Positions 781 through 11,857 of a stretch of DNA of 11,857 bases are shown here, piece by piece. The first letter of the stretch is position 1, and every line of letters starts with the position of its first letter. The DNA comes from Erysipelothrix sp. Lineage in GTDB: Bacteria > Bacillota_I > Bacilli_A > Erysipelotrichales > Erysipelotrichaceae. The position numbers and the translations under genes were made by a program. The stretch lies in assembly GCA_012520695.1 (NCBI GenBank), contig JAAYNU010000100.1:1-11857 (forward strand), given 5' to 3'. A model generated the notes under the pieces. That model searched no databases, was not told the DNA's origin, and saw only the letters and a program-made list of their open reading frames with translations.

Positions 781-788
781 AAAGGTGG
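781..788 (+). promoter_or_regulatory. Ribosome-binding site deciding the TTG start of gntR
   Basis: AAAGGTGG lies 8 nt before TTG at 797. The GTG codons at 785 and 788 fall inside or against this site and so cannot use it. Confidence 0.65.
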
Positions 789-796
789 TGTTTGCT

Positions 797-1495
797 TTGA
801 GTAAGAGAAATTTATTATATCTCACGGTTGCGGATGAGATAAAGGAAGACATCCTTCAGGGCGTTTATCCTGTTGGGACGAATATTCCAACTGAGCGAGA
901 ACTTGAGGAGCGTTTCTCTGTAAGTAAGATTACAGTTCGTAACGCAATTGAGATCCTTAGTAATGAGGGTTATGTTGAAAAGAAGAGTGGCGTTGGTACG
1001 AAAGTCATCTCCGATCGTTTATTTAACAAGCTTTCGAAGGCGCGTTCGTTTTCAGCGATCTTAGAAGAGAAACATAATCTTAAGAAAGAAGTGATTTTCT
1101 TTGGAATCGTGGATTCACCCGATGATGGTGAAGTGAAACGGTTGTTTGGGGAACAGTCCTATCTTTTAGAGCGTACCTACGAATTGGATCAAAAGCCTTA
1201 TATTTATTTTGAACACTACTTTCCAATCGTTGATCCTAAAGCTACCATCAAGTCTATTGAAAATCAATCGCTTTATAAATGGCTTGCGGATAGTGGGATG
1301 GAAGTTGCCTATTTCCAAGATGCGTTTAAAGTAGCACGTATGAATGCGAAATTGAAGATGCTTTTAGATACCAGAGCAACACATGTTTTGTGTCGTGTTC
1401 GTAAGACCTTTGATCGCAATGATAGGGTTATAGAAATCTCTTATGGCTATTATGATTCAGAGATGTCGCCGTATATTATAGAGTACGAAGTGTAG
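797..1495 (+). CDS. GntR family (HutC/UTRA type) transcriptional regulator
   Basis: A protein of 232 residues starting at TTG: (M)SKRNLLYLTVADEIKED. Residues about 8-72 form the GntR winged helix-turn-helix: 'GVYPVGTNIPTERELEERF', then 'VSKITVRNAIEILSNEGYVEKKSGVGT'. The rest, about 90-230, resembles a UTRA effector-binding domain: 'LLERTYELDQKPYIYFEHYFP' and the closing 'VIEISYGYYDSEMSPYIIEYEV'. UTRA domains usually bind a sugar phosphate or similar small metabolite. The reading frame extends upstream to GTG 785, but the AAAGGTGG site fits only the TTG. The gene has its own terminator and lies just upstream of the four-gene catabolic operon; a 13-bp sequence is shared between the two promoter regions. 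It is inferred to repress both until an intermediate of the pathway binds. The exact effector is unknown. Confidence 0.9.
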   Translation: MSKRNLLYLTVADEIKEDILQGVYPVGTNIPTERELEERFSVSKITVRNAIEILSNEGYVEKKSGVGTKVISDRLFNKLSKARSFSAILEEKHNLKKEVIFFGIVDSPDDGEVKRLFGEQSYLLERTYELDQKPYIYFEHYFPIVDPKATIKSIENQSLYKWLADSGMEVAYFQDAFKVARMNAKLKMLLDTRATHVLCRVRKTFDRNDRVIEISYGYYDSEMSPYIIEYEV

Positions 1496-1519
1496 AAGTC
1501 CTTTGAGGCTTCTATTTTT
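1493..1519 (+). terminator. Rho-independent terminator after gntR
   Basis: TAGAAG (1493-1498) pairs with CTTCTA (1509-1514); inside it CCT pairs with AGG, leaving one bulged T and a TTG loop. A run of five T residues follows. The stem begins with the gntR stop codon. Confidence 0.75.
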
Positions 1520-1520
1520 G

Positions 1521-1549
1521 TTTACACAAGAACATTATAATGTTATGAT
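1521..1549 (+). promoter_or_regulatory. Promoter of the amidohydrolase-dgaE-dgaF-kdgK operon
   Basis: TTTACA (1521-1526), 17-bp spacer, TATGAT (1544-1549), with an extended -10 TG at 1541-1542. The spacer is almost filled by the palindrome at 1531-1544. The predicted start, about 1556, gives a leader near 20 nt. Confidence 0.7.
1531..1546 (+). promoter_or_regulatory. Candidate GntR operator
   Basis: A perfect 14-bp palindrome AACATTATAATGTT (1531-1544) sits between the -35 and -10 boxes. The 13-mer ATAACATTATAAT is present here on the minus strand (1546-1534) and on the plus strand upstream of gntR (767-779). The position is ideal for repression; assignment to the neighbouring GntR protein is inference. 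Confidence 0.6.
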
Positions 1550-1576
1550 GTTGTAATAGAAACAGTGGTGGAGTGG

Positions 1577-2674
1577 ATGAAAATACTCATTAGAAATGCA
1601 AGACTTATTACAGATGAAGTCTTTGATATTTTAGTTGTGGATGGCCTGATTGAAAGAATCGGACTGAATCTTGAAGTTGAAGCCGACCGGGTTATTGAAG
1701 TACCAAGTAATGTTTACGTATCACCAGGGTGGATTGATATGCATACGCATGCCTTCAAACACTTTGAATTGTACTCAGATGGTCCAGAAGAAATCGGCTA
1801 TAAAACAGGGGTTACTTGTGTTGTGGATGCAGGTACAACGGGTGCGGATGATATGGCACAATTTTATAATGATACGCGATCGAATATCACGCGCGTTTAT
1901 GCCTTAGTAAACATTGCCCATCAAGGCATCAAAACACAAAATGAACTCGCGAATTTAAGGGATATTCAATTTGATTCGATTAAGAAAATAATCGAAACCT
2001 ATCCTGACTTCATCCTTGGATTGAAAGCACGTATGAGTGCTTCAGTTGTCGGGGGTCAAGGGATTGAGCCCCTGTTAATCGGGAAGTCATTCGCGAATCG
2101 ATTGAACCTACCCCTAATGGTTCATGTAGGCTCAACGCCACCTGATTTGGATTTGATTGCGAATACACTTGATAAAGGGGACATCATTACCCATATCTTT
2201 AATGGTAAGGAGAATGGTATGTATTCGAGTGATGTGATTTTGCCATCGATACTTTCTGCTCGCAATCGGGGCGTATTCTTTGATGTTGGTCATGGCAAGG
2301 AAAGTTTCAGCTTTGATGTTGCTCAGAAGGCGTTTAAAGACGGTTTCTTGAGTGATACCATCAGTTCTGACATCTACAGTCGTAACCGCCTAGAGGGGCC
2401 TGTATACAGCCTAGTTCACACAATGAATAAGCTGTTGTATGTTGGCTATTCACCTGAGAAAATAATCAAAAGTGTGACGGAAGCACCAGCATGTATTATG
2501 AATTTATCCATGCTTGGAAAAATACGAACAGGCTTGTTTGCGGATCTCACATTCTATAAATATGATGAAGTAAATTTGGACCTTACAGATTCAGTAGGTA
2601 AACAAGTCCATTTAGATAAAGGGTTCATTCCAGTCGGAGTTTTATTAAAGGGGGAGTATTATGAAATTAAGTAG
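1577..2674 (+). CDS. Amidohydrolase/deacetylase family metallohydrolase (EF_0837 type)
   Basis: A 365-residue amidohydrolase-superfamily enzyme. The full metal-ligand set is visible: H56 and H58 in 'WIDMHTHAF', K150 in 'LGLKARMS' (the usual carboxylated lysine), H183 in 'MVHVGS', H206 in 'ITHIFNG' and D265 in 'SSDIYSR'. A short beta-strand region precedes the barrel (about 1-50), and the C-terminal part returns to it ('GLFADLTFYKYD'). It is dihydroorotase/deacetylase-like, and this subfamily is known for sitting beside the SelA-like and KDPG-aldolase genes found here. The likely reaction is hydrolysis of an amide, plausibly removing an N-acyl group from an amino-sugar acid; the substrate is inferred from the neighbours. 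ATG 1577 is preferred over GTG 1565, which has no ribosome-binding site; GGTGG at 1567-1571 is 5 nt before ATG. The 3' end overlaps the next gene by 14 bp. Confidence 0.88.
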   Translation: MKILIRNARLITDEVFDILVVDGLIERIGLNLEVEADRVIEVPSNVYVSPGWIDMHTHAFKHFELYSDGPEEIGYKTGVTCVVDAGTTGADDMAQFYNDTRSNITRVYALVNIAHQGIKTQNELANLRDIQFDSIKKIIETYPDFILGLKARMSASVVGGQGIEPLLIGKSFANRLNLPLMVHVGSTPPDLDLIANTLDKGDIITHIFNGKENGMYSSDVILPSILSARNRGVFFDVGHGKESFSFDVAQKAFKDGFLSDTISSDIYSRNRLEGPVYSLVHTMNKLLYVGYSPEKIIKSVTEAPACIMNLSMLGKIRTGLFADLTFYKYDEVNLDLTDSVGKQVHLDKGFIPVGVLLKGEYYEIK

Positions 2675-3716
2675 AATTATTAATGCGTCGGGTAAAATGA
2701 CCATCTTAGGAGGGTCGAAGGTTGATGAATCAGTTGCGGAAAAAATGGTGTTTGGTGCACAAAACCTTTTCCTGATGGAAGAGTTAATTGAAGTATCAGG
2801 CAAGCATATTGCGAATCTATTCGGCGTCGAGTCGGCGAGTATCGTAGCGAGTGCTTCAGCAGGGATTGCGCAAGCAGTAGCGAGTGTAATATCGAACGAT
2901 CATGTGCTTGATCCATACAACACTAATAATTTACGCCGCAATATCGTCATGCCCAAAGGACACAATGTGGACTACGGTACAACGATTGCAATTCCCATTC
3001 AAATGGGAGGCGGGGTTGTCGTCGAAGCAGGGTATGCGAATGCTTGTTCTTTAGATCATGTTGAAAGCAAGATAGATGAGAATACCGCAGCACTTCTCTT
3101 TGTGAAGTCACATCATGCCGTTCAAAAAGGTATGCCCGATCTAAAGGAGTTTATTGAGCTGGGTCATAAGCACGGTTTGCCTGTCATCGTTGATGCGGCA
3201 GCTGAGGGCGATGTAGCGTATTACCACCACCTTGGTGCGGATGCGGTAATCTATTCAGGAACGAAGACCTTTGAAGGACCTACTTCAGGTGTTGTGATTG
3301 GAACGCATGACTTCATTACGAAGCTTCGCCATCAATCAAAAGGGATTGGTCGCGTTATGAAAGTGGGTAAAGAAGGAATTCTTGGGCTTGTTCAAGCGCT
3401 TGATAATCACTTTGTGCACGAAGATGTATCTCTAGATGATCAAAAGAAACGACTTGAAATATTCCATTCTGGTTTCCAAGGAATACTCAAGAGTCGTAAT
3501 GTTCAAGATGGCGCGGGAAGACCGATATTAAGATGTGAATTAACATTCAGTTCAAGTGAAGAAGCAGTTAGGATTGTGAATCACTTGAAATCAGGAGATG
3601 TGAAGATTTATACCAGAGATTATCGTGCCAACGAAGGCATCATTGAACTGGATGTACGAGATTTAAGTGATGATGAAATGAAAGAAATTGTAGTCGCAAT
3701 CAAGGAGGGACTTTAA
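2661..3716 (+). CDS. dgaE: DgaE/SelA-like PLP-dependent ammonia-lyase
   Basis: A 351-residue fold-type I PLP enzyme of the SelA-related family. The Schiff-base lysine is K202 in 'YSGTKTFEGPTSG', preceded by the aspartate of 'PVIVDAAAE' that normally holds the PLP nitrogen. The N-terminal 'RIINASGKMTILGGS' and 'GVESASIVASASAGIAQAVA' are typical of SelA-like proteins; this is not selenocysteine synthase, being shorter and set among sugar-acid genes. Characterised DgaE of Salmonella removes ammonia from D-glucosaminate-6-phosphate to give KDPG. Here, with a KDG kinase downstream and no PTS genes in view, the unphosphorylated acid is an equally good substrate; this is inference. The start is firm: GGGGGAG lies a few nt before ATG 2661. 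The gene overlaps the amidohydrolase by 14 bp and stops 1 nt before the aldolase. Confidence 0.85.
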   Translation: MKLSRIINASGKMTILGGSKVDESVAEKMVFGAQNLFLMEELIEVSGKHIANLFGVESASIVASASAGIAQAVASVISNDHVLDPYNTNNLRRNIVMPKGHNVDYGTTIAIPIQMGGGVVVEAGYANACSLDHVESKIDENTAALLFVKSHHAVQKGMPDLKEFIELGHKHGLPVIVDAAAEGDVAYYHHLGADAVIYSGTKTFEGPTSGVVIGTHDFITKLRHQSKGIGRVMKVGKEGILGLVQALDNHFVHEDVSLDDQKKRLEIFHSGFQGILKSRNVQDGAGRPILRCELTFSSSEEAVRIVNHLKSGDVKIYTRDYRANEGIIELDVRDLSDDEMKEIVVAIKEGL

Positions 3717-3717
3717 G

Positions 3718-4455
3718 ATGAGTCATGAACAACGTTTTTTAAACAATAGAGTGTGTTTGAATGTATTGGGTAATTCATTGGAAAATGCGAAGGATATTTT
3801 TGAAGCAGCACAGGGACATGTCCTTGTGGGATTGTTATCAAAAACATATCCATCCGTTGATGTTGCGGTTGAAGATATGAATCGTTATATGAAGGAAATT
3901 GATGGTGCAATTTCAGTGGGACTGGGTGCAGGAGATCCAAAACAGTGGAAAATGGTTGCGGACATCGCTAAAGAAGTTCAACCCCAACACGTTAATCAGG
4001 TCTGTACAGCAACGGGTTATACTCGTGGTTTATTAGGTCAAAATGATACCTATGTGAACAGTCTTCTCAGTCCAACAGGAAAAGTGGGTTATGTGAATAT
4101 GGCAACGGGTGAGTTCAGTTCTCAGGTTGAACAAACTTTAGTACCGATTGATACAGCGATTGTGATGTTGAAGGAAATGGGCGCTAACTCAGTTAAATTC
4201 TATCCAATGAATGGTCTTAGTACGCGTGATGAGTTTGTCGCTGTGTGTGAAGCATGTGCTCGCCATGATTTCATGGTAGAACCAACGGGAAGTCTTGACT
4301 TAGAGAACTTTGAAGAAATTCTTCAAATTGCACTTGATGCAGGTGTTCCTAAAGTAATACCTCATGTGTACTCTTCAGTGATTGATCCAGTTTCAAAGGA
4401 TACGCGTATTGAAGATGTGAAAACACTCTACGAAATCATGAAGCGTCTGGTATGA
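3718..4455 (+). CDS. dgaF: 2-dehydro-3-deoxy-phosphogluconate aldolase (DgaF type, EF_0839 family)
   Basis: A 245-residue TIM-barrel aldolase, longer than the classic Eda protein. The probable Schiff-base lysine is K160 in 'GANSVKFYPMNGL'. Other barrel landmarks are 'ISVGLGAGDPKQW' (substrate or phosphate-binding loop), 'VNQVCTATGYTRGLLG' and the C-terminal 'MVEPTGSLDLENFEEIL', followed by 'GVPKVIPHVYSSVIDP'. The family splits KDPG into pyruvate and glyceraldehyde-3-phosphate, and it pairs with the DgaE-like enzyme in many genomes, as it does here. AAGGAGGG at 3702-3709 inside the end of dgaE precedes ATG 3718; the gap is 1 nt. The stop codon overlaps the start of the kinase (ATGA), so these genes are translationally coupled. 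Product and role are well supported by motif and context; exact stereospecificity is not visible. Confidence 0.87.
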   Translation: MSHEQRFLNNRVCLNVLGNSLENAKDIFEAAQGHVLVGLLSKTYPSVDVAVEDMNRYMKEIDGAISVGLGAGDPKQWKMVADIAKEVQPQHVNQVCTATGYTRGLLGQNDTYVNSLLSPTGKVGYVNMATGEFSSQVEQTLVPIDTAIVMLKEMGANSVKFYPMNGLSTRDEFVAVCEACARHDFMVEPTGSLDLENFEEILQIALDAGVPKVIPHVYSSVIDPVSKDTRIEDVKTLYEIMKRLV

Positions 4456-5411
4456 GAGTACTAGCGTTTGGTGAGGTCATGATGCGTTTGATGCCTAATG
4501 ATTATAAAATGATGGATCAAACGGATAGTTTAGAATACTTATACACCGGAACTGGTGTCAACATTTTAGGTGGTCTTAGTCGACTTGGCGTTTCTACGTC
4601 CATGTTTACCTGCTTGCCTGATAATCGTATTGGTAAGAGTGCGAATGCTCATTTGCGTAAACTGGGTCTTGATACTTCATTTGTGAGGTTTGATTCTAAT
4701 CATATGGGGATGTATTTCCTTGAAAAGGGGATTGGTGCTCGTAGCTCTTATGTTACGTACATGAATCGTTCGGAGTCTTCATTTGCGAAACATGATTATC
4801 AAAACATTCATTATGATGCTCTTTTGGATTCAGTATCGTGTATTCATATCTGTGGTATTTCTCTTATTCAAGACCATACGTATCGTGTTGCCTTGAATTT
4901 GATGATAGAGGCACGTAAGCGAGAAGTGTTAGTCTTCTTTGATTGTAACTACAGACCAAGTTTGTGGGACAATCCAGATGATTCACTTGAGAGGTATCTT
5001 GAGATTCTTTCCTATTGTGATTATGTTTTCGCAACATCCAGGGATGCATTGCGCTTTATGGATGGTGAGGGCGATGAACTCATGAACTCATTTAAGGAAC
5101 GTTTTAATTTCAAAGGAATCTTTGGGACAAAGCGAAGTACTGAGGATACGATTCAAGGCTTCGCATATTTGAACAGTAAATATGAAAGTTCAGTTTATGA
5201 TGTCGTGGTTTATGATCGCATTGGTACTGGTGATGGCTTTGCGCTTGGTGTTATTTATGCGCTGTTAAATGATTATACTCCGAATGATTTAATTGAGTTT
5301 TCTACGGCTAGTGGGGTTCTTGCCCACACAACCTATGGTGACACACCGTGTGTTGATTTGATGGATATTGAGAACTTGGTTAACGGGATTTATATTGATT
5401 TAGTCCGATAA
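4452..5411 (+). CDS. kdgK: 2-keto-3-deoxygluconate kinase (PfkB/ribokinase family)
   Basis: A 319-residue PfkB-family sugar kinase. The N-terminal 'VLAFGEVMMRLMPNDY' and 'TGTGVNILGGLSRLGVSTSM', the lid and substrate region 'YFLEKGIGARSSYVTYMNRSE', and 'FFDCNYRPSLW' are the pattern of KDG kinases; the NYRPxLW motif is especially typical. The C-terminal signature 'GTGDGFALGVIYALL' contains the catalytic base D261. It phosphorylates 2-keto-3-deoxygluconate to KDPG using ATP, feeding the aldolase encoded just upstream. The ATG overlaps the dgaF stop (ATGA) and no strong ribosome-binding site is seen, so expression depends on coupling. The usual 'GGAxxN' near residue 38 reads 'GTGVN', a mild variation. 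Other ketose or deoxy-sugar acids are possible substrates. It is the last gene of the operon. Confidence 0.82.
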   Translation: MRVLAFGEVMMRLMPNDYKMMDQTDSLEYLYTGTGVNILGGLSRLGVSTSMFTCLPDNRIGKSANAHLRKLGLDTSFVRFDSNHMGMYFLEKGIGARSSYVTYMNRSESSFAKHDYQNIHYDALLDSVSCIHICGISLIQDHTYRVALNLMIEARKREVLVFFDCNYRPSLWDNPDDSLERYLEILSYCDYVFATSRDALRFMDGEGDELMNSFKERFNFKGIFGTKRSTEDTIQGFAYLNSKYESSVYDVVVYDRIGTGDGFALGVIYALLNDYTPNDLIEFSTASGVLAHTTYGDTPCVDLMDIENLVNGIYIDLVR

Positions 5412-5507: not shown

Positions 5508-6140
5508 ATGAATAACTATTATGAAACGTGTCTTGCGACATTGAATGATCTTATTGAGAGTGGAAAGCAAAAAGAAGCTCTTGATCTTGTTTCACAGGAA
5601 TTACGTATGCCCTATGTTCCGGAACCTTATTTTTCGCAGTTTGAAGGGATCCGCGATGCCATCGTTGTTGATCAGCGCACTGGTTCGCAGTTCTTTGAAG
5701 ATGTAGAAGAGATTGGCTTGGCACTGAAGGGAAATGAAGCACTCCAGCATAAAGCATTGATGTCACTTGAGCGTATGAATTTACGGTCAATACAGGATTC
5801 TTTAAGTGGATGGTTTATGGATCGTATCATTCCTGATTGGATAAAAAAACAATTGTTATTTTTTCTTATGGAACAGGATTTAAATTTAGAAATTCAAATT
5901 GAACTGGATTCAAAGAAACATTTAATTAATACAGCGGATTTGAAGAATCCCTTTGCGAGTGAAGCGTTCGTTCAGTGTGAACTGGCCTTGCGTCATCGTT
6001 TGGAATCTCATAATCCCAGTCTACTGATCTTATGTGTGTCTCAGTTGGAACAAATGGCTTTATCGGCGTTTCCGCTTGGTGAAGGAGTGTTTGTTGCGGG
6101 TGACATAATTGCTGAGGTAGAGCGTTACTTGGGTGTGTAA
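5508..6140 (+). CDS. Small helical protein, DUF3196/TPR-like
   Basis: A 210-residue, mostly helical soluble protein with no signal peptide or membrane segment. The N-terminal 'CLATLNDLIESGKQKEALDLVSQELRMPYVPEPYFSQFEGI' reads like a TPR-type helix pair followed by the 'E-L-x-M-P-Y-x-P' segment that I associate with the DUF3196 family of Mollicutes and Erysipelotrichia. Later parts (about 70-130) suggest HEAT- or TPR-like helix pairs. The biochemical function is unknown. In Bacillus subtilis a TPR protein (YsoA) also lies just upstream of tig, so the place in the genome, though not clearly the sequence, is shared. A link to nascent-chain handling is only guilt by association. I see no terminator between this gene and tig, so read-through into tig is likely alongside tig's own promoter. 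Confidence 0.7.
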   Translation: MNNYYETCLATLNDLIESGKQKEALDLVSQELRMPYVPEPYFSQFEGIRDAIVVDQRTGSQFFEDVEEIGLALKGNEALQHKALMSLERMNLRSIQDSLSGWFMDRIIPDWIKKQLLFFLMEQDLNLEIQIELDSKKHLINTADLKNPFASEAFVQCELALRHRLESHNPSLLILCVSQLEQMALSAFPLGEGVFVAGDIIAEVERYLGV

Positions 6141-6148
6141 ATGAAGTT

Positions 6149-6175
6149 TTGGCACTCAATGATTGACAGTGCTAA
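6149..6175 (+). promoter_or_regulatory. CIRCE element (HrcA operator) at the tig promoter
   Basis: TTGGCACTC (6149-6157), exactly 9 nt, CAGTGCTAA (6167-6175). The CIRCE consensus is TTAGCACTC-N9-GAGTGCTAA; 16 of 18 arm positions match and the spacing is exact. It covers the -35 box of tig. CIRCE is the binding site of the heat-shock repressor HrcA, normally found at groESL and the dnaK operon. Confidence 0.8.
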
Positions 6176-6190
6176 ATCTTGTGTTATAAT
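6163..6190 (+). promoter_or_regulatory. Promoter of tig
   Basis: Consensus TTGACA (6163-6168), 16-bp spacer and consensus TATAAT (6185-6190), with TGT before the -10 (extended). It is a very strong sigma-A promoter, with its -35 box inside the CIRCE element. Confidence 0.88.
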
Positions 6191-6212
6191 AGTATTGTAC
6201 TAGGAGGAAAGA

Positions 6213-7487
6213 ATGAAATCTACATGGACATTAAATGAAAACTCAACGGGAGTTTTAGAAGTTGAAGTAAACAAAGAGGCTTGGAAAAAGGCTCAAGATA
6301 AATCTTTAGAGATCTTATCAAAGGATATTGAAATCCAAGGATTCCGTAAGGGCCATGCTCCTAAGCATTTAGCTCAAAAACAAATCGGTTCACAAAAATT
6401 ATTGCTTGAAGCAATGAACAATGTTGCTAACGAAGCATTTGTTGCAGGAATGATTGAACAAAAAATTGAACCAGTTGCTCAACCGCAACTTGATATCAAA
6501 GCAATGACAGAAGATGAATTGACACTTATTTTTAACGTAACTGTTAAACCTGAAGTTGAACTTGGAGAATACAAGGGCATCGCTATCGCGGCTGAAGACG
6601 TTACTGTCACAGACGAAGATGTTGAAGCAGAACTTGTTAAACTACAAGACCAAAACGCTCAACTTACTGTATTAGAAGATGCAGTTGTTGAAAACGGTCA
6701 TACTGTTATTATCGACTTTGAAGGTTTCAAAGATGATGTAGCATTCGAAGGTGGAAAAGGTGAGAACTATACTTTAGAAATCGGTTCAAACTCATTCATC
6801 CCAGGATTTGAAGAAGCATTAATTGGTATGAAGTCAGGCGAAGAAAAAGATTTAGATATTACATTCCCTGAAACATATCACGTTGAAGAATTAAAATCAC
6901 AACCAGTAATTTTCAAAGTAAAACTACATGAAATTAAGGTTCGTGAACTACCAGAACTAAACGATGATTTCGTTGAACTCGTAGAAGTTGAAGATGTAAC
7001 AACTTTAGATGAATTAAAAGCATCAATTAAAAAAGATTTAGAAACACAGCGCAAGCAAGTTGAAGAAGATCGTGTGAACGATGAACTTGTTCGTACCGTT
7101 GCTGAAAACGCAAAAGTTGAAATTCCAGAAGCAATGATTGAAGAAGAATTGAACCAAATGTTCAATGAATTCAACCAACGTCTTGCTCAACAAGGAATGA
7201 ACTTTGAACTTTACTCACAAATCTTAGGACAATCTGAAGAAGATGTTCGTGGTCAAATGAGTGAAGATGCAGGCAAACGCGTCCGTTCACGTTTAGTTCT
7301 AGAAAAAATTGCTGAAGTTGAAGAACTTAAAGTTGAAGACAGTGAAATTGATGAGGAATACGCTCGTATCGCAGAAATGTACGGTATGGAAGTTGACCAA
7401 GTTAAAGAAATTGCTTCACCAGATGCAATTCAATACGATATCTTACTGCGTAAAGCAGTCGAGTTGGTACAATCAACTCAAGCTTAA
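6213..7487 (+). CDS. tig: Trigger factor, ribosome-associated chaperone and peptidyl-prolyl isomerase
   Basis: A 424-residue protein, close to the usual length. The three classic parts are visible. The N-terminal ribosome-binding domain carries the signature 'GFRKGHAP' at 43-50 (the loop that contacts ribosomal protein L23). The FKBP-like isomerase domain (about 155-245) contains 'VIIDFEGFKDDVAFEGGKGENY' split by a short turn and then 'IPGFEEALIGMKSGEEKDL'. The long helical C-terminal arms (about 255-420) are rich in Glu and Lys. It binds nascent chains at the ribosome exit tunnel. AGGAGG at 6202-6207 lies 5 nt before ATG. Codons are strongly biased to AT-rich forms, as in highly expressed genes. 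The promoter is strong and carries a CIRCE element, so heat induction through HrcA is expected. A small terminator follows, then lon. Confidence 0.96.
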   Translation: MKSTWTLNENSTGVLEVEVNKEAWKKAQDKSLEILSKDIEIQGFRKGHAPKHLAQKQIGSQKLLLEAMNNVANEAFVAGMIEQKIEPVAQPQLDIKAMTEDELTLIFNVTVKPEVELGEYKGIAIAAEDVTVTDEDVEAELVKLQDQNAQLTVLEDAVVENGHTVIIDFEGFKDDVAFEGGKGENYTLEIGSNSFIPGFEEALIGMKSGEEKDLDITFPETYHVEELKSQPVIFKVKLHEIKVRELPELNDDFVELVEVEDVTTLDELKASIKKDLETQRKQVEEDRVNDELVRTVAENAKVEIPEAMIEEELNQMFNEFNQRLAQQGMNFELYSQILGQSEEDVRGQMSEDAGKRVRSRLVLEKIAEVEELKVEDSEIDEEYARIAEMYGMEVDQVKEIASPDAIQYDILLRKAVELVQSTQA

Positions 7488-7492
7488 CTTTT

Positions 7493-7516
7493 AAAGACGC
7501 GAAAAGCGTCTTTTTT
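7493..7516 (+). terminator. Terminator or attenuator between tig and lon
   Basis: An 8-bp perfect stem AAAGACGC/GCGTCTTT (7493-7500, 7506-7513) with a GAAAA loop and a short T run. It ends 18 nt before the lon ATG and I see no promoter after it, so lon probably depends on partial read-through. Confidence 0.78.
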
Positions 7517-7524
7517 ATCCTAAA

Positions 7525-7530
7525 GGAGGG
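7525..7530 (+). promoter_or_regulatory. Ribosome-binding site of lon
   Basis: GGAGGG, part of AAAGGAGGG (7522-7530). From GGAGG (7525-7529) the gap is 4 nt to ATG 7534 and 7 nt to ATG 7537. The second ATG is better spaced; the difference is one residue. Confidence 0.8.
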
Positions 7531-7533
7531 ATT

Positions 7534-9852
7534 ATGATGAGCGAAAATAAACCAATGAGTGTTCCTGTTGTAGCCACAAGGGGAGTCATAGTTTTCCCTG
7601 GCCAGGAAATCATGATCGAAGTCAGCCGTCATAAGAGCATTAACGCGATTGATGAGGCCGAGAAATTCTTTAACGGGAATGTATTTTTAGTCAGTCAGCG
7701 CGATGTGCTTATTGATGAACCTCAAGAAGAGGATCTATATGAGTTTGGCTCATTAGTCCATATTAAATCTGTGAAACGTAAACAAGGTTTTCTACGCGTA
7801 ACGTTCACGGGTCTTCAACGAGGAGAAATTGTTACCTTATCCGAAGATGCAAAAATGTTATTTGGAAGCATCAATCTAGTCGAAGATACGATAGGTAATG
7901 CTGACGAGGAATTAGTTCTTGTTCGAAAGATCACAAAAGAACTTGAAAGTATTACAATCCAAAACATGCCACTTCCAGCGGAAGTGATTCAACACCTTAC
8001 AATGGGTGTGAGTGCAGCGCAGTTTGCGGATCAGATTGTTCAATATTTCCCTCTCAATCTTGAGAGAAAACAAGGGTTCTTGGAAGAACTGGACGTAAAT
8101 GAGAGACTTATGTCAATCTCTGAAGAAATTCAACGTGAAGCAACACTGTCATCGATTGAAACAACAATCAATGAAAAAGTGAAAGATCGCGTCGAAGAAA
8201 ACCAAAGAGAATACTACTTACGTGAAAAAATGAGAGCCATTCGAGAAGAACTCGGAGATGCAACGGATGTTGGTGAAGATACGGATGAATTCAGACGATT
8301 ACTTGAAGAAAATCCATATCCAAAACACGTTCGAGAAAAAGCACTCGAAGAGATTTCTCGTTATGAAATGTTACCACAAGCATCCGGTGAATCCGGTGTC
8401 GTGCGTTCATACCTTGATTGGTTATTGAAAACACCGTGGTGGCAAGAAACAGAAGACAATAAAAACTTAAATGAAGTACGTGAAAAACTTGATGAAGATC
8501 ACTTCGGTCTTGATAAAGTTAAGGATCGTATTATGGAATACCTCGCTGTCAAGAATATGACAGGGAACCTAAATGCACCGATTCTTGCATTAGTTGGGCC
8601 TCCTGGTGTTGGTAAAACATCCCTTGCGAAGAGTATTGCGGATTCTCTCGGTAGAGAATTTGTGAAGGCTTCGTTTGGTGGAGTTCGTGATGAAGCTGAA
8701 ATTCGTGGTCACAGACGTACATACCTTGGATCACTTCCAGGGCGTATCATTCAAGGAATGAAAAAAGCGGGAGTTGTTAACCCTGTATTCTTAATTGATG
8801 AAATCGACAAGATGGCATCAGACTACAAGGGAGATCCTTCAAGTGCAATGCTTGAGGTTCTTGACCCTGAACAAAACACGATGTTCTCAGATAACTATCT
8901 TGAAGAACCGTATGATTTATCCAATGTTATGTTTGTGGCAACCGCAAACTATCTTGGAGATATTCCAGAAGCACTCCGTGACCGTTTGGAAATCATTCAA
9001 CTCAGTTCTTATACTGAAGAAGAAAAAGTTGAAATTGCGAAAGCTCACTTGATTCCAAAACAAATGGAAGCCAATGGATTGAAAAAGTCACAATTCAAAC
9101 TCGCAGACAAACAACTGCAATTTATCATTCGCCACTATACTCGTGAAGCGGGTGTACGTCAGTTGGAGCGTGTTATTGCTTCACTTGCACGTAAAACTGT
9201 TCTTGCGATTCTTAAAGACGATAAGAAATCCGTTACGATTACGAATAAACTAACTGAAGAATGGTTAGGACATACAATCTTCGAATACGGTCAAAAAGAA
9301 AAGAAAAACCAAGTGGGTGTTGTTACCGGGCTTGCCTTTACACAATTCGGAGGGGATGTACTTCCTATCGAAGTTACTACTTTTGATGGTAAGGGTCGCT
9401 TAATCGTAACTGGTCAATTGGGTGATGTTATGAAGGAATCTTCAGAAATTGCCTTTGGTTATGTTAAGAGTCATGCGAAGGAATTGGGAATTGCTTCTGA
9501 TTTCTTTGAAAAACATGATGTCCAAGTTCACGTACCAGAAGGTGCTGTTCCAAAAGACGGTCCTTCAGCAGGTGTAACATTCACAACTGCTCTCATATCA
9601 GCAATCACAAACCGTAAGGTATTCGCTGATGTCGCTATGACAGGTGAAATGACACTTCGTGGTAATGTACTTCCAATTGGTGGATTGAAAGAGAAATCTC
9701 TTGCTGCTCACCGTGTTGGAATCTCGAAGATCTTCATTCCTAAACTCAATGAGAAGGATATGGATGAAATTCCAGATGTCGTGAAGGAATCAGTAACGTT
9801 CATTCCAGTTGAGACCATTGATCAAGTCATTAAACAGGCATTAGTTCAATGA
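7534..9852 (+). CDS. lon: ATP-dependent Lon protease (LonA type)
   Basis: A 772-residue full-length LonA. In order: the N-terminal substrate-binding LON domain (about 8-205, starting '[15 protein letters not shown]'); a helical linker containing '[17 protein letters not shown]'; the AAA+ module with Walker A GPPGVGKT at 355-362, Walker B VFLIDE at 418-423 and the arginine-bearing 'ALRDRLEII'; and the C-terminal protease domain with catalytic S678 in '[10 protein letters not shown]' and K721 in '[12 protein letters not shown]', 43 residues apart as in E. coli Lon. It degrades misfolded and regulatory proteins in the cytoplasm; no membrane segment is present, so this is not LonB. It may start at the second ATG (7537), which suits the ribosome-binding site better. 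It lies 46 nt after tig and overlaps engB by ATGA. In B. subtilis clpX and lonB sit between tig and lonA; both are missing here. Confidence 0.97.
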
Positions 9853-10421
9853 GTTTCCACGCCAATGATGCGAAACTCATCATCTCAGCAGCGGCATACA
9901 AACAATTCCCTGAAACGGGACAAAAAGAAATCGTAATGGTTGGGAAATCCAACGTAGGGAAAAGTTCGCTTATCAATGCCTTGTGCAATCGTAAGCGACT
10001 TGCCTATGTCGGACAAAGACCAGGGAAAACACGTTTAATTAACTTCTTTCATATTACTGATGAAATGATGTTAGTGGACGTTCCAGGTTATGGTTTCGCA
10101 AATCGTTCGAAGCAAGAACAAATCAATTATGGTACACTTATGGATTCATACTTTGAACTGAGACATCCAAGTCTTATGTTGATTCTTGTGGATATTCGCC
10201 GCGGTATTGCGGAAGAAGATGAATCGATGATGCAATTTGCGCAACACTACGGCATGGATTACGCAATCGTACTTTCAAAAGCAGATAAGCTTTCAAGAGG
10301 AAAAGCGAAGTCACTGCAGTTACAAACAGAGCGTAATTATGGTGTCCCAGTATTTCTATTTTCACATACGATGATAGAATCGCGTGAACCAATTCTAAAT
10401 AAAATATTAACGTATATTTAA
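9849..10421 (+). CDS. engB: Ribosome-biogenesis GTPase EngB/YsxC (YihA family)
   Basis: A 190-residue TRAFAC-class small GTPase needed for late assembly of the 50S ribosomal subunit in Bacillus. The GTPase motifs are in order: G1 GKSNVGKS at 32-39; G2 threonine T61 in 'RPGKTR'; G3 DVPGYG at 77-82; and G4 SKADK at 143-147, where T or S precedes KAD in relatives. The G5 region reads 'PVFLFSHT' where relatives usually show 'FSS', a small variation. Length matches the family (about 195). The start codon overlaps the lon stop (ATGA), with only a weak upstream AGG, so translation is probably coupled to lon. The lon-ysxC pairing is conserved in Firmicutes. A strong terminator follows, ending this block. 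Confidence 0.96.
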   Translation: MSFHANDAKLIISAAAYKQFPETGQKEIVMVGKSNVGKSSLINALCNRKRLAYVGQRPGKTRLINFFHITDEMMLVDVPGYGFANRSKQEQINYGTLMDSYFELRHPSLMLILVDIRRGIAEEDESMMQFAQHYGMDYAIVLSKADKLSRGKAKSLQLQTERNYGVPVFLFSHTMIESREPILNKILTYI

Positions 10422-10515: not shown

Positions 10516-11514
10516 ATGACTAAAATTAAGTATTACTTTAAACGATTATTCGCACTCGATTATAAAAATATGTGGCGTCTTGCTGGGGAAATTAGTAAAG
10601 AACATAAGCGATCCCGTTTATATATTCTTATTGACATGGTGATTTGTTCACTACGATATCAAGCAGGATATATGGAATACTTTGAATACGAGTTTTTTCT
10701 TTTGAATCATAAACAACGACAAACATTTATGACAACTGGAAAAGCACACCAAATTATAATGAAATACAATCAAAGAGATCAGCGCTATAAATTCGCTGAC
10801 AAAACAGTTTTCAACGAAATATTTAAAGACTTTATTGGACGCGATTATATTGATGTTCGCGAGAGTACAGTTGAAGAGCTTCAAGCATTTATGGAAAAAT
10901 ACCAAGTCGTTATGGCAAAAAGAAATGATGCTATGATGGGAGATGGAGTTGAGCGCGTTGATGTTAAAGACATTAAAGACTTCAGTGCATTCCATGCAAA
11001 ACTTCTAGAACAACGTCAATTCTTAATTGAAGAATTCTTTGTTCAACACGAAGACATGAGTAAATTATATCCAGACAGTGTGAATACCTTACGCGTCATT
11101 ACATTCTTTGACGGTAAAGATGTTCATGTATTAGAGTCTATTTTAAAAATCGGAAACGGTGGTCACTTAGATAACTTCGGAGCGGGTGGTATGTATACCA
11201 TTCTTGACGAAAATGGTGTTGTTAAATACCCTGCTTTTGATATGTTGGCGAAAGCTTATACAAATCATCCAATCACTGGAACACCCATCGTAGGTTTCCA
11301 AGTACCGAACTTTGATATCTTATTAGAAACTATGGACCGTGCAGCGCGCGTGGTACCTGAAATTCAATATGTCGGATGGGATGTCGCAATTGGACAAGTT
11401 AAACCTGCATTGATTGAAGGTAACTACAATACGGGAGTATTCCAAATGAAACCAAGCCTTACGGGCGAAAAAATCGGATTGGTTCCGCGTTACCGTTCCA
11501 TTATTGATTTTTAA
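10516..11514 (+). CDS. Sugar-transfer-associated ATP-grasp family protein (first tandem copy)
   Basis: A 332-residue cytoplasmic protein with no signal peptide. It has a basic N-terminal helical region (about 1-95), then 'FIGRDYIDV', a candidate nucleotide-binding lysine in 'VVMAKRNDAMMGDGVERVD' (about 131-149), and 'LIEEFFVQHEDMSKLYPDSVNTLRVITFF', broken here by reading it as two blocks: the hinge 'LIEEFF' and the 'SVNTLRVITFF' strand. Near the end 'VGWDVAIGQVKPALIEGNYN' gives the acidic and Asn metal-binding residues. This matches my memory of the ATPgrasp_ST family, found in surface-polysaccharide loci and presumed to ligate or modify a sugar-linked acid. The exact reaction is unknown. AAAGGG (10502-10507) lies 8 nt before ATG. 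A related gene follows after 15 nt. Confidence 0.82.
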   Translation: MTKIKYYFKRLFALDYKNMWRLAGEISKEHKRSRLYILIDMVICSLRYQAGYMEYFEYEFFLLNHKQRQTFMTTGKAHQIIMKYNQRDQRYKFADKTVFNEIFKDFIGRDYIDVRESTVEELQAFMEKYQVVMAKRNDAMMGDGVERVDVKDIKDFSAFHAKLLEQRQFLIEEFFVQHEDMSKLYPDSVNTLRVITFFDGKDVHVLESILKIGNGGHLDNFGAGGMYTILDENGVVKYPAFDMLAKAYTNHPITGTPIVGFQVPNFDILLETMDRAARVVPEIQYVGWDVAIGQVKPALIEGNYNTGVFQMKPSLTGEKIGLVPRYRSIIDF

Positions 11515-11529: not shown

Positions 11530-11857
11530 ATGAAAAACACACTTAAAAGTCGTTTTGACTTAAAACTGTTATTACAGATTGCTTTTGATACAAAACGAAA
11601 AAACAATAAAATGCTTCTACCCATCATGTTTGATATTGTTGTATCATCATTTAAATACGATATGTCCTATAAAGAATATCGCATCTATGAGTTCTACAAA
11701 TTAGAAAAAGTTGATCGCAGAAAGTTCTTAATGATGAGTGATGCTCAACGCATTGATGCTCGATATAATCACGGAATCAACCGTGAAATATTCACAGACA
11801 AGATGATCTTCACAAAGCGTCTTGAAGATTATACTGGAAGAATTGTATTAGACCTAC
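11530..11857 (+). CDS. Second tandem ATP-grasp family protein, N-terminal part (cut by window edge)
   Basis: ATG 11530 opens a frame that stays open to the right edge, about 109 residues: MKNTLKSRFDLKLLLQIAFD and onward. A 76-residue stretch, 'FDIVVSSFKY' through 'TGRIVLDL', aligns without gaps to 'IDMVICSLRY' through 'IGRDYIDV' of the upstream gene; I count 26 identities. It is therefore a diverged tandem paralogue, not a recent duplication. The visible part covers only the N-terminal helical region, so the ATP-binding residues cannot be judged. The ribosome-binding site (GAGAGAG) is weak; the gap to the upstream gene is 15 nt, so the two are almost certainly co-transcribed. Confidence 0.78.
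   Translation, partial: MKNTLKSRFDLKLLLQIAFDTKRKNNKMLLPIMFDIVVSSFKYDMSYKEYRIYEFYKLEKVDRRKFLMMSDAQRIDARYNHGINREIFTDKMIFTKRLEDYTGRIVLDL

Follow-up and report, generated by a model that had tools for sequence, protein, structure and literature searches.

In Bacillus subtilis, the repressor HrcA is described as acting on the dnaK and groE operons, and its activity is reported to be set by GroE (PMC8957991). In the passages cited here, Mollicutes are reported to have its operator CIRCE also at clpB and lon (PMC5138195, PMC7737663), and Geobacter sulfurreducens at rpoH (PMC545781), so that a restriction of CIRCE to groESL and the dnaK operon, as assumed in the first-pass annotation of the locus studied here, can no longer be upheld. 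For Campylobacter jejuni, HrcA has been described as an intrinsic thermosensor whose binding is enhanced by GroE (PMC8533110).

In this study, we analysed a stretch of 11,857 nt (in the following, the window), which represents contig C253 of a 1.33-Mb Erysipelothrix draft genome (265 contigs, 88% complete) and carries a CIRCE candidate in front of tig, the gene for trigger factor. Generally, the system resembles that of B. subtilis in the operator consensus, the N9 spacing, the repressor family, and an hrcA-grpE-dnaK-dnaJ operon under CIRCE. It differs in that tig, clpB, and htpG are added to the genes preceded by the operator (in relatives also hsp20), in that the operators of tig, hrcA, and a DUF308 gene enclose a TTGAC box, and in that groESL was found in only six of the 13 genomes of the genus. 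Likeness to the Mollicutes M. pneumoniae and Spiroplasma melliferum is given by extended targets, namely clpB and lon there (PMC5138195, PMC7737663), and the order tig-lon is the one reported for M. pneumoniae. While the CIRCE of M. pneumoniae is described between tig and lon (PMC7737663), the one found here stands in front of tig, with lon preceded by a terminator-like hairpin. The HrcA protein of C. jejuni may serve as a model for heat sensing by the repressor itself (PMC8533110), apart from the fact that no GroE was found in seven of the 13 genomes of the genus studied here. Passages retrieved from the open-licence literature in PubMed Central revealed no description of a CIRCE upstream of tig; judged by its sequence features, tig can be added, with good support, to the targets of an operator-repressor pair that is itself known.

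A CIRCE operator with a nested -35 box before tig

A pattern scan of the window revealed the CIRCE candidate on the forward strand at 6149–6175, namely TTGGCACTC-AATGATTGA-CAGTGCTAA (left arm 6149–6157, N9 spacer 6158–6166, right arm 6167–6175). It agrees with the consensus TTAGCACTC-N9-GAGTGCTAA at 16 of the 18 arm positions, leaving two mismatches, and is the sole match in the window with up to three mismatches allowed. The repeat described in the first-pass annotation, with 16 of 18 arm positions and exact spacing, was thus confirmed, the N9 spacing being built into the CIRCE searches. Dinucleotide shuffles of the window led to a CIRCE match in 2 of 200 cases. At the base frequencies of the window, the chance of a match with at most two mismatches is about 2e-8 per position, corresponding to 0.03 expected matches per 1.33-Mb genome; the presence of the site throughout the genus (see below) is stronger support than this estimate. 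Inverted-repeat detection on the window reported no pair, since the longest exact arm match comprises five bases and is shorter than the seed of six. The operator begins 8 nt past the stop codon of the upstream gene and is located 37 nt before the start codon of tig.

CIRCE overlaps the promoter of this chaperone gene, which was assigned to sigma-A by consensus only. Its -35 box TTGACA (6163–6168, forward strand) runs from the end of the CIRCE spacer two bases into the right arm, and a 16-nt spacer separates it from TATAAT at 6185–6190, which is preceded by TG, giving the extended -10 element TGTTATAAT at 6182–6190 on the same strand. In the consensus scan this was the only 12/12 promoter match in the window, in line with the first-pass annotation, which had placed the operator over the -35 box of a near-perfect promoter. 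One deviation from the CIRCE consensus, G to C in the right arm, is accounted for by this arrangement because the TTGACA box requires the C. Transcription is predicted to start near 6197, followed by a ribosome-binding site (AGGAGG, 6202–6207, identified by eye) and tig itself (6213–7487, with Pfam domains Trigger_N, FKBP_C, and Trigger_C), all on the forward strand. Directly upstream lies a DUF3196-like gene (5508–6140, forward strand; Pfam E-value of 1.1e-5, below the gathering cut-off). The region before it (785–5411) harbors genes for a GntR/UTRA regulator, an amidohydrolase, a DgaE-family lyase, a DgaF-type aldolase, and a PfkB kinase, and represents, according to these gene contents, a probable amino-sugar-acid degradation operon.

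Conservation and distribution of the tig site

The nearest named trigger factors belong to Erysipelothrix, with identities of 65–73% in the genus, and five genomes of this genus (g1) agree over 600 nt without a difference with named Erysipelothrix records, so that g1 is, or includes, Erysipelothrix. A tig match was obtained in 12 of its 13 genomes (none in G122, which is 84% complete), and hrcA in all 13. In each of the 12 genomes with a tig match, a CIRCE is located 37–39 nt before the start codon, and the repeat has therefore not been lost from the tig upstream region of close relatives. Aligned tig sites, 16 in total, displayed one or two mismatches to the consensus in every case, and TTGAC is invariant in all of them. 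Among eight non-redundant sites of the genus, the information content per column was 1.88 bits in the left arm, 0.69 in the five free spacer bases, 2.0 in TTGAC, 1.88 in the remaining right arm, and 0.48 in the flank from -20 to -6. Values for the 16 sites, a set that is partly near-identical and includes four picked because they carry the site, were similar with 1.93, 0.63, 2.0, 1.88, and 0.46 bits, respectively. Since the left arm has no role in the promoter, its conservation argues for a repressor site, and as far as can be judged from an alignment, arms that are held while flank and free spacer drift imply selection on binding. The first base of the right arm is C in 16/16 tig sites and the second is additionally T in nine of them, which weakens the symmetry of the CIRCE.

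For a wider search, a strict CIRCE pattern was checked on loci and then run on 272 genomes of the family and 395 genomes of the class. In the family, it resulted in 53 places in 52 of the 272 genomes, and in 38 genomes, belonging to 10 of 59 genera, it was found directly before tig, with tig identities down to about 44%. In addition, genome G234 revealed a CIRCE with the tig start 136 nt downstream, and in genome G066 (L217) a CIRCE precedes a DUF3196-like gene with 28% identity to that of the window, tig being next at +825. The remaining 13 places were assigned to hsp20 (seven), clpB (two), htpG (one), and none of the genes searched (three). The class scan led to matches in 21 of the 395 genomes, seven of them at tig (five from the Erysipelothrix genus and two from genus g26, all within the family) and one more, also within the family, before a DUF3196-like gene followed by tig; matches outside the family were located at htpG (10), clpB (two), and hrcA (one). 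Altogether, the tig CIRCE is a lineage trait, and most genomes of the family gave no match at tig; owing to the strictness of the pattern, absence elsewhere is no proof. Of 80 named trigger-factor loci, nine had a CIRCE (up to four mismatches allowed) in the 400 nt before the gene, and about six of the remaining ones are poor tests due to a short flank (L035, L051, L066) or a match that starts mid-gene (L080, L083, L084). Ten genomes from other families of the class (L149, L160–L168) displayed a CIRCE with nested -35 box before htpG, suggesting that this arrangement predates the site at tig.

HrcA, its further candidate targets, and GroE

A profile search identified one copy of hrcA in the source genome, and a scan with up to two mismatches led to five CIRCEs including that of tig. 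The other four stand shortly before hrcA-grpE-dnaK-dnaJ (with grpE, dnaK, and dnaJ named by eye), clpB, htpG, and a DUF308 gene, so that both the repressor gene and a CIRCE at dnaK, which had been sought as companions of the tig site, are present. A sixth CIRCE-like place with three mismatches was detected at C39:5318. Such isolated three-mismatch CIRCEs carry little meaning because a reversed control pattern also matches at that level: it revealed three places in the scan of the source genome and, with up to three mismatches and among the matches listed, one in the source genome and 0–2 per genome of the genus, compared to 2–8 for the real pattern. The CIRCEs of hrcA, the DUF308 gene, and tig have TTGACAGTGCTAA, a -35 box fused to the right arm, in common, and those of clpB and htpG are located just before the ribosome-binding site. 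The DUF308 gene (L003:180–763, G000:C181), with a one-mismatch CIRCE and nested TTGACA, would be an unexpected target of HrcA. Twelve other CIRCE loci inspected in the genus are followed by a gene that was read as hsp20, htpG, clpB, groES, or hrcA, which Pfam confirmed for the eight tested. Among the matches listed, hsp20 often harbored two CIRCEs 48–51 bp apart, and groES was preceded by a CIRCE (up to three mismatches) in five of the six groES-bearing genomes. The genomic setting of its operator strongly suggests that tig is a member of the HrcA regulon.

No match to GroEL or GroES was obtained in the source draft (88% complete) by Pfam profile search. Both proteins match in the same six of the 13 genomes of the genus, and neither was matched in the other seven, which include the source draft and three single-contig genomes (G082, G118, and G121). 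As the GroE-less genomes keep hrcA, GroE can hardly be the HrcA sensor there, and the setting of HrcA activity by GroE as in B. subtilis can hardly apply to them, unless their chaperonin is too diverged for Pfam. According to the cited passage, GroEL is missing from many Mycoplasma species (PMC4193397), so that this genus may not be alone in having HrcA but no GroE. In regard to G116 and G117, HrcA and trigger factor are 100% identical after rounding (the HrcA comparison was performed without G123 and the HrcA tree without G122 and G123), and groESL was found only in G116, with no match to GroEL or GroES in the near-identical G117; this difference may go back to loss, gain, or an assembly gap. 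In G116, groES-groEL is located directly after a gene for a phage-type integrase, and a gene for an N6 DNA methylase lies nearby (L218:4429–11140, G116:C29).

The idea that the tig CIRCE substitutes for a lost groE is not supported, since in a sample of 115 family genomes 11 of the 20 carriers have GroEL, compared to 78 of all 115, and within the genus the site occurs both with and without GroE. Somewhat speculatively, HrcA of the GroE-less lineages might work in a circuit without chaperonin, in which either the repressor is its own heat sensor or a different chaperone from its regulon titrates it, with trigger factor as one of the folding chaperones delivered by the circuit and possibly as its feedback partner; we regard this as rather unlikely. 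If true, the feedback loop between HrcA and GroE would have been rewired within one genus, and the GroE-bearing sister species would represent natural controls.

Proposed control of tig and its reach into lon and engB

Based on these features, we infer that tig is under the control of HrcA, which would repress it via the CIRCE covering the -35 box and release it with the rest of the regulon upon heat, and assign a probability of roughly 0.87 to this reading. Relative to the predicted start, HrcA on 6149–6175 would occupy about -48 to -22 and thereby cover the -35 box, in competition with RNA polymerase for an otherwise near-consensus promoter, leading to partial repression. Heat or misfolded protein would remove HrcA from the DNA, and tig would be derepressed together with hrcA-grpE-dnaK-dnaJ, clpB, and htpG, in relatives also with hsp20 and, where present, groESL; some transcripts may then continue beyond the hairpin that follows tig and reach lon-engB. 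In Myxococcus, a 2.6–3.3-fold rise of one trigger factor's transcript is reported to have slowed growth (PMC11559001), so that a strong induction of tig could be costly.

Binding of HrcA might also matter little, if tig is kept nearly constant by its strong promoter together with transcripts that read through from the DUF3196-like gene, and HrcA just trims its level. An open reading frame resembling that gene by eye is found upstream of tig in all 12 genomes of the genus with tig and ends 60–114 nt before it, no terminator-like site is listed between the two genes on the forward strand of the window, and the CIRCE of G066 precedes the DUF3196-like gene and, after it, tig, as if the two formed one operon. 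The DUF3196-like gene is thus a possible source of HrcA-independent read-through, which could bypass the operator. However, the near-invariance of both arms amid drifting flank and spacer points to selection on binding, and such a minor role of HrcA is, in our view, unlikely. Far less probable still is an RNA hairpin without any protein site, serving as terminator of the upstream gene or as a 5' leader element of tig. Though an inverted repeat 8 nt past a stop codon would fit a terminator, no U-run follows it, and the predicted start comes only after it, so that the tig transcript made there would not contain it. Moreover, the sequence itself matches CIRCE beyond mere pairing and also precedes other heat-shock genes, and the innermost pair is broken in 16/16 tig sites (left arm C in 15 and T in one, right arm C in 16). 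The upstream position, the missing U-run, and the conservation as a CIRCE sequence led us to discard this RNA-hairpin reading.

How far control by HrcA would extend downstream depends on the region after tig. A terminator-like hairpin with U-run, likely a terminator or attenuator, is located at 7493–7516 on the forward strand between tig and lon (7534–9852, forward strand), which follows tig after a gap of 46 nt. The end of lon overlaps by 4 nt with engB/ysxC (9849–10421, forward strand; TIGR03598 above cut-off), encoding a ribosome-biogenesis GTPase. Their common strand and close spacing could speak for a single HrcA-controlled operon of tig, lon, and engB, as could the consensus scan, which revealed no promoter-like match starting at 6869–7929 on the forward strand; lon may thus depend on read-through or on a promoter missed by the scan. 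M. pneumoniae has the same tig-lon order, and lon is reported there, in the passage cited, to use the tig promoter along with a CIRCE upstream of lon (PMC7737663). In contrast, the window revealed no CIRCE with up to three mismatches between tig and lon, and the hairpin with U-run just after tig is found in 12/12 genomes of the genus, with folding energies of -12.0 to -16.2 kcal/mol for a 45-nt stretch. Given this conserved hairpin, HrcA control of lon-engB would be at best partial, and the single operon remains a doubtful reading, if a somewhat better one than a merely trimming HrcA. Thus, of the proposed tie between folding, proteolysis, and ribosome biogenesis, the placement of tig in the regulon is backed by the site and its conservation, whereas the extension to lon and engB is called into question by the hairpin. 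Further downstream, the window harbors a sugar-transfer ATP-grasp gene (10516–11514, PF14397) and, after it, an open reading frame (11530–11856) that at its start resembles this gene by eye.

Trigger factor is usually regarded as a housekeeping chaperone. In Erysipelothrix and several related bacteria, damage to proteins probably raises tig as it does the usual heat-shock genes, and control of tig by HrcA in ten genera would bring the chaperone of the ribosome exit into the stress response there. As GroE-bearing and GroE-less species of the genus have HrcA targets in common, their comparison makes the question of what HrcA senses without GroE directly testable.
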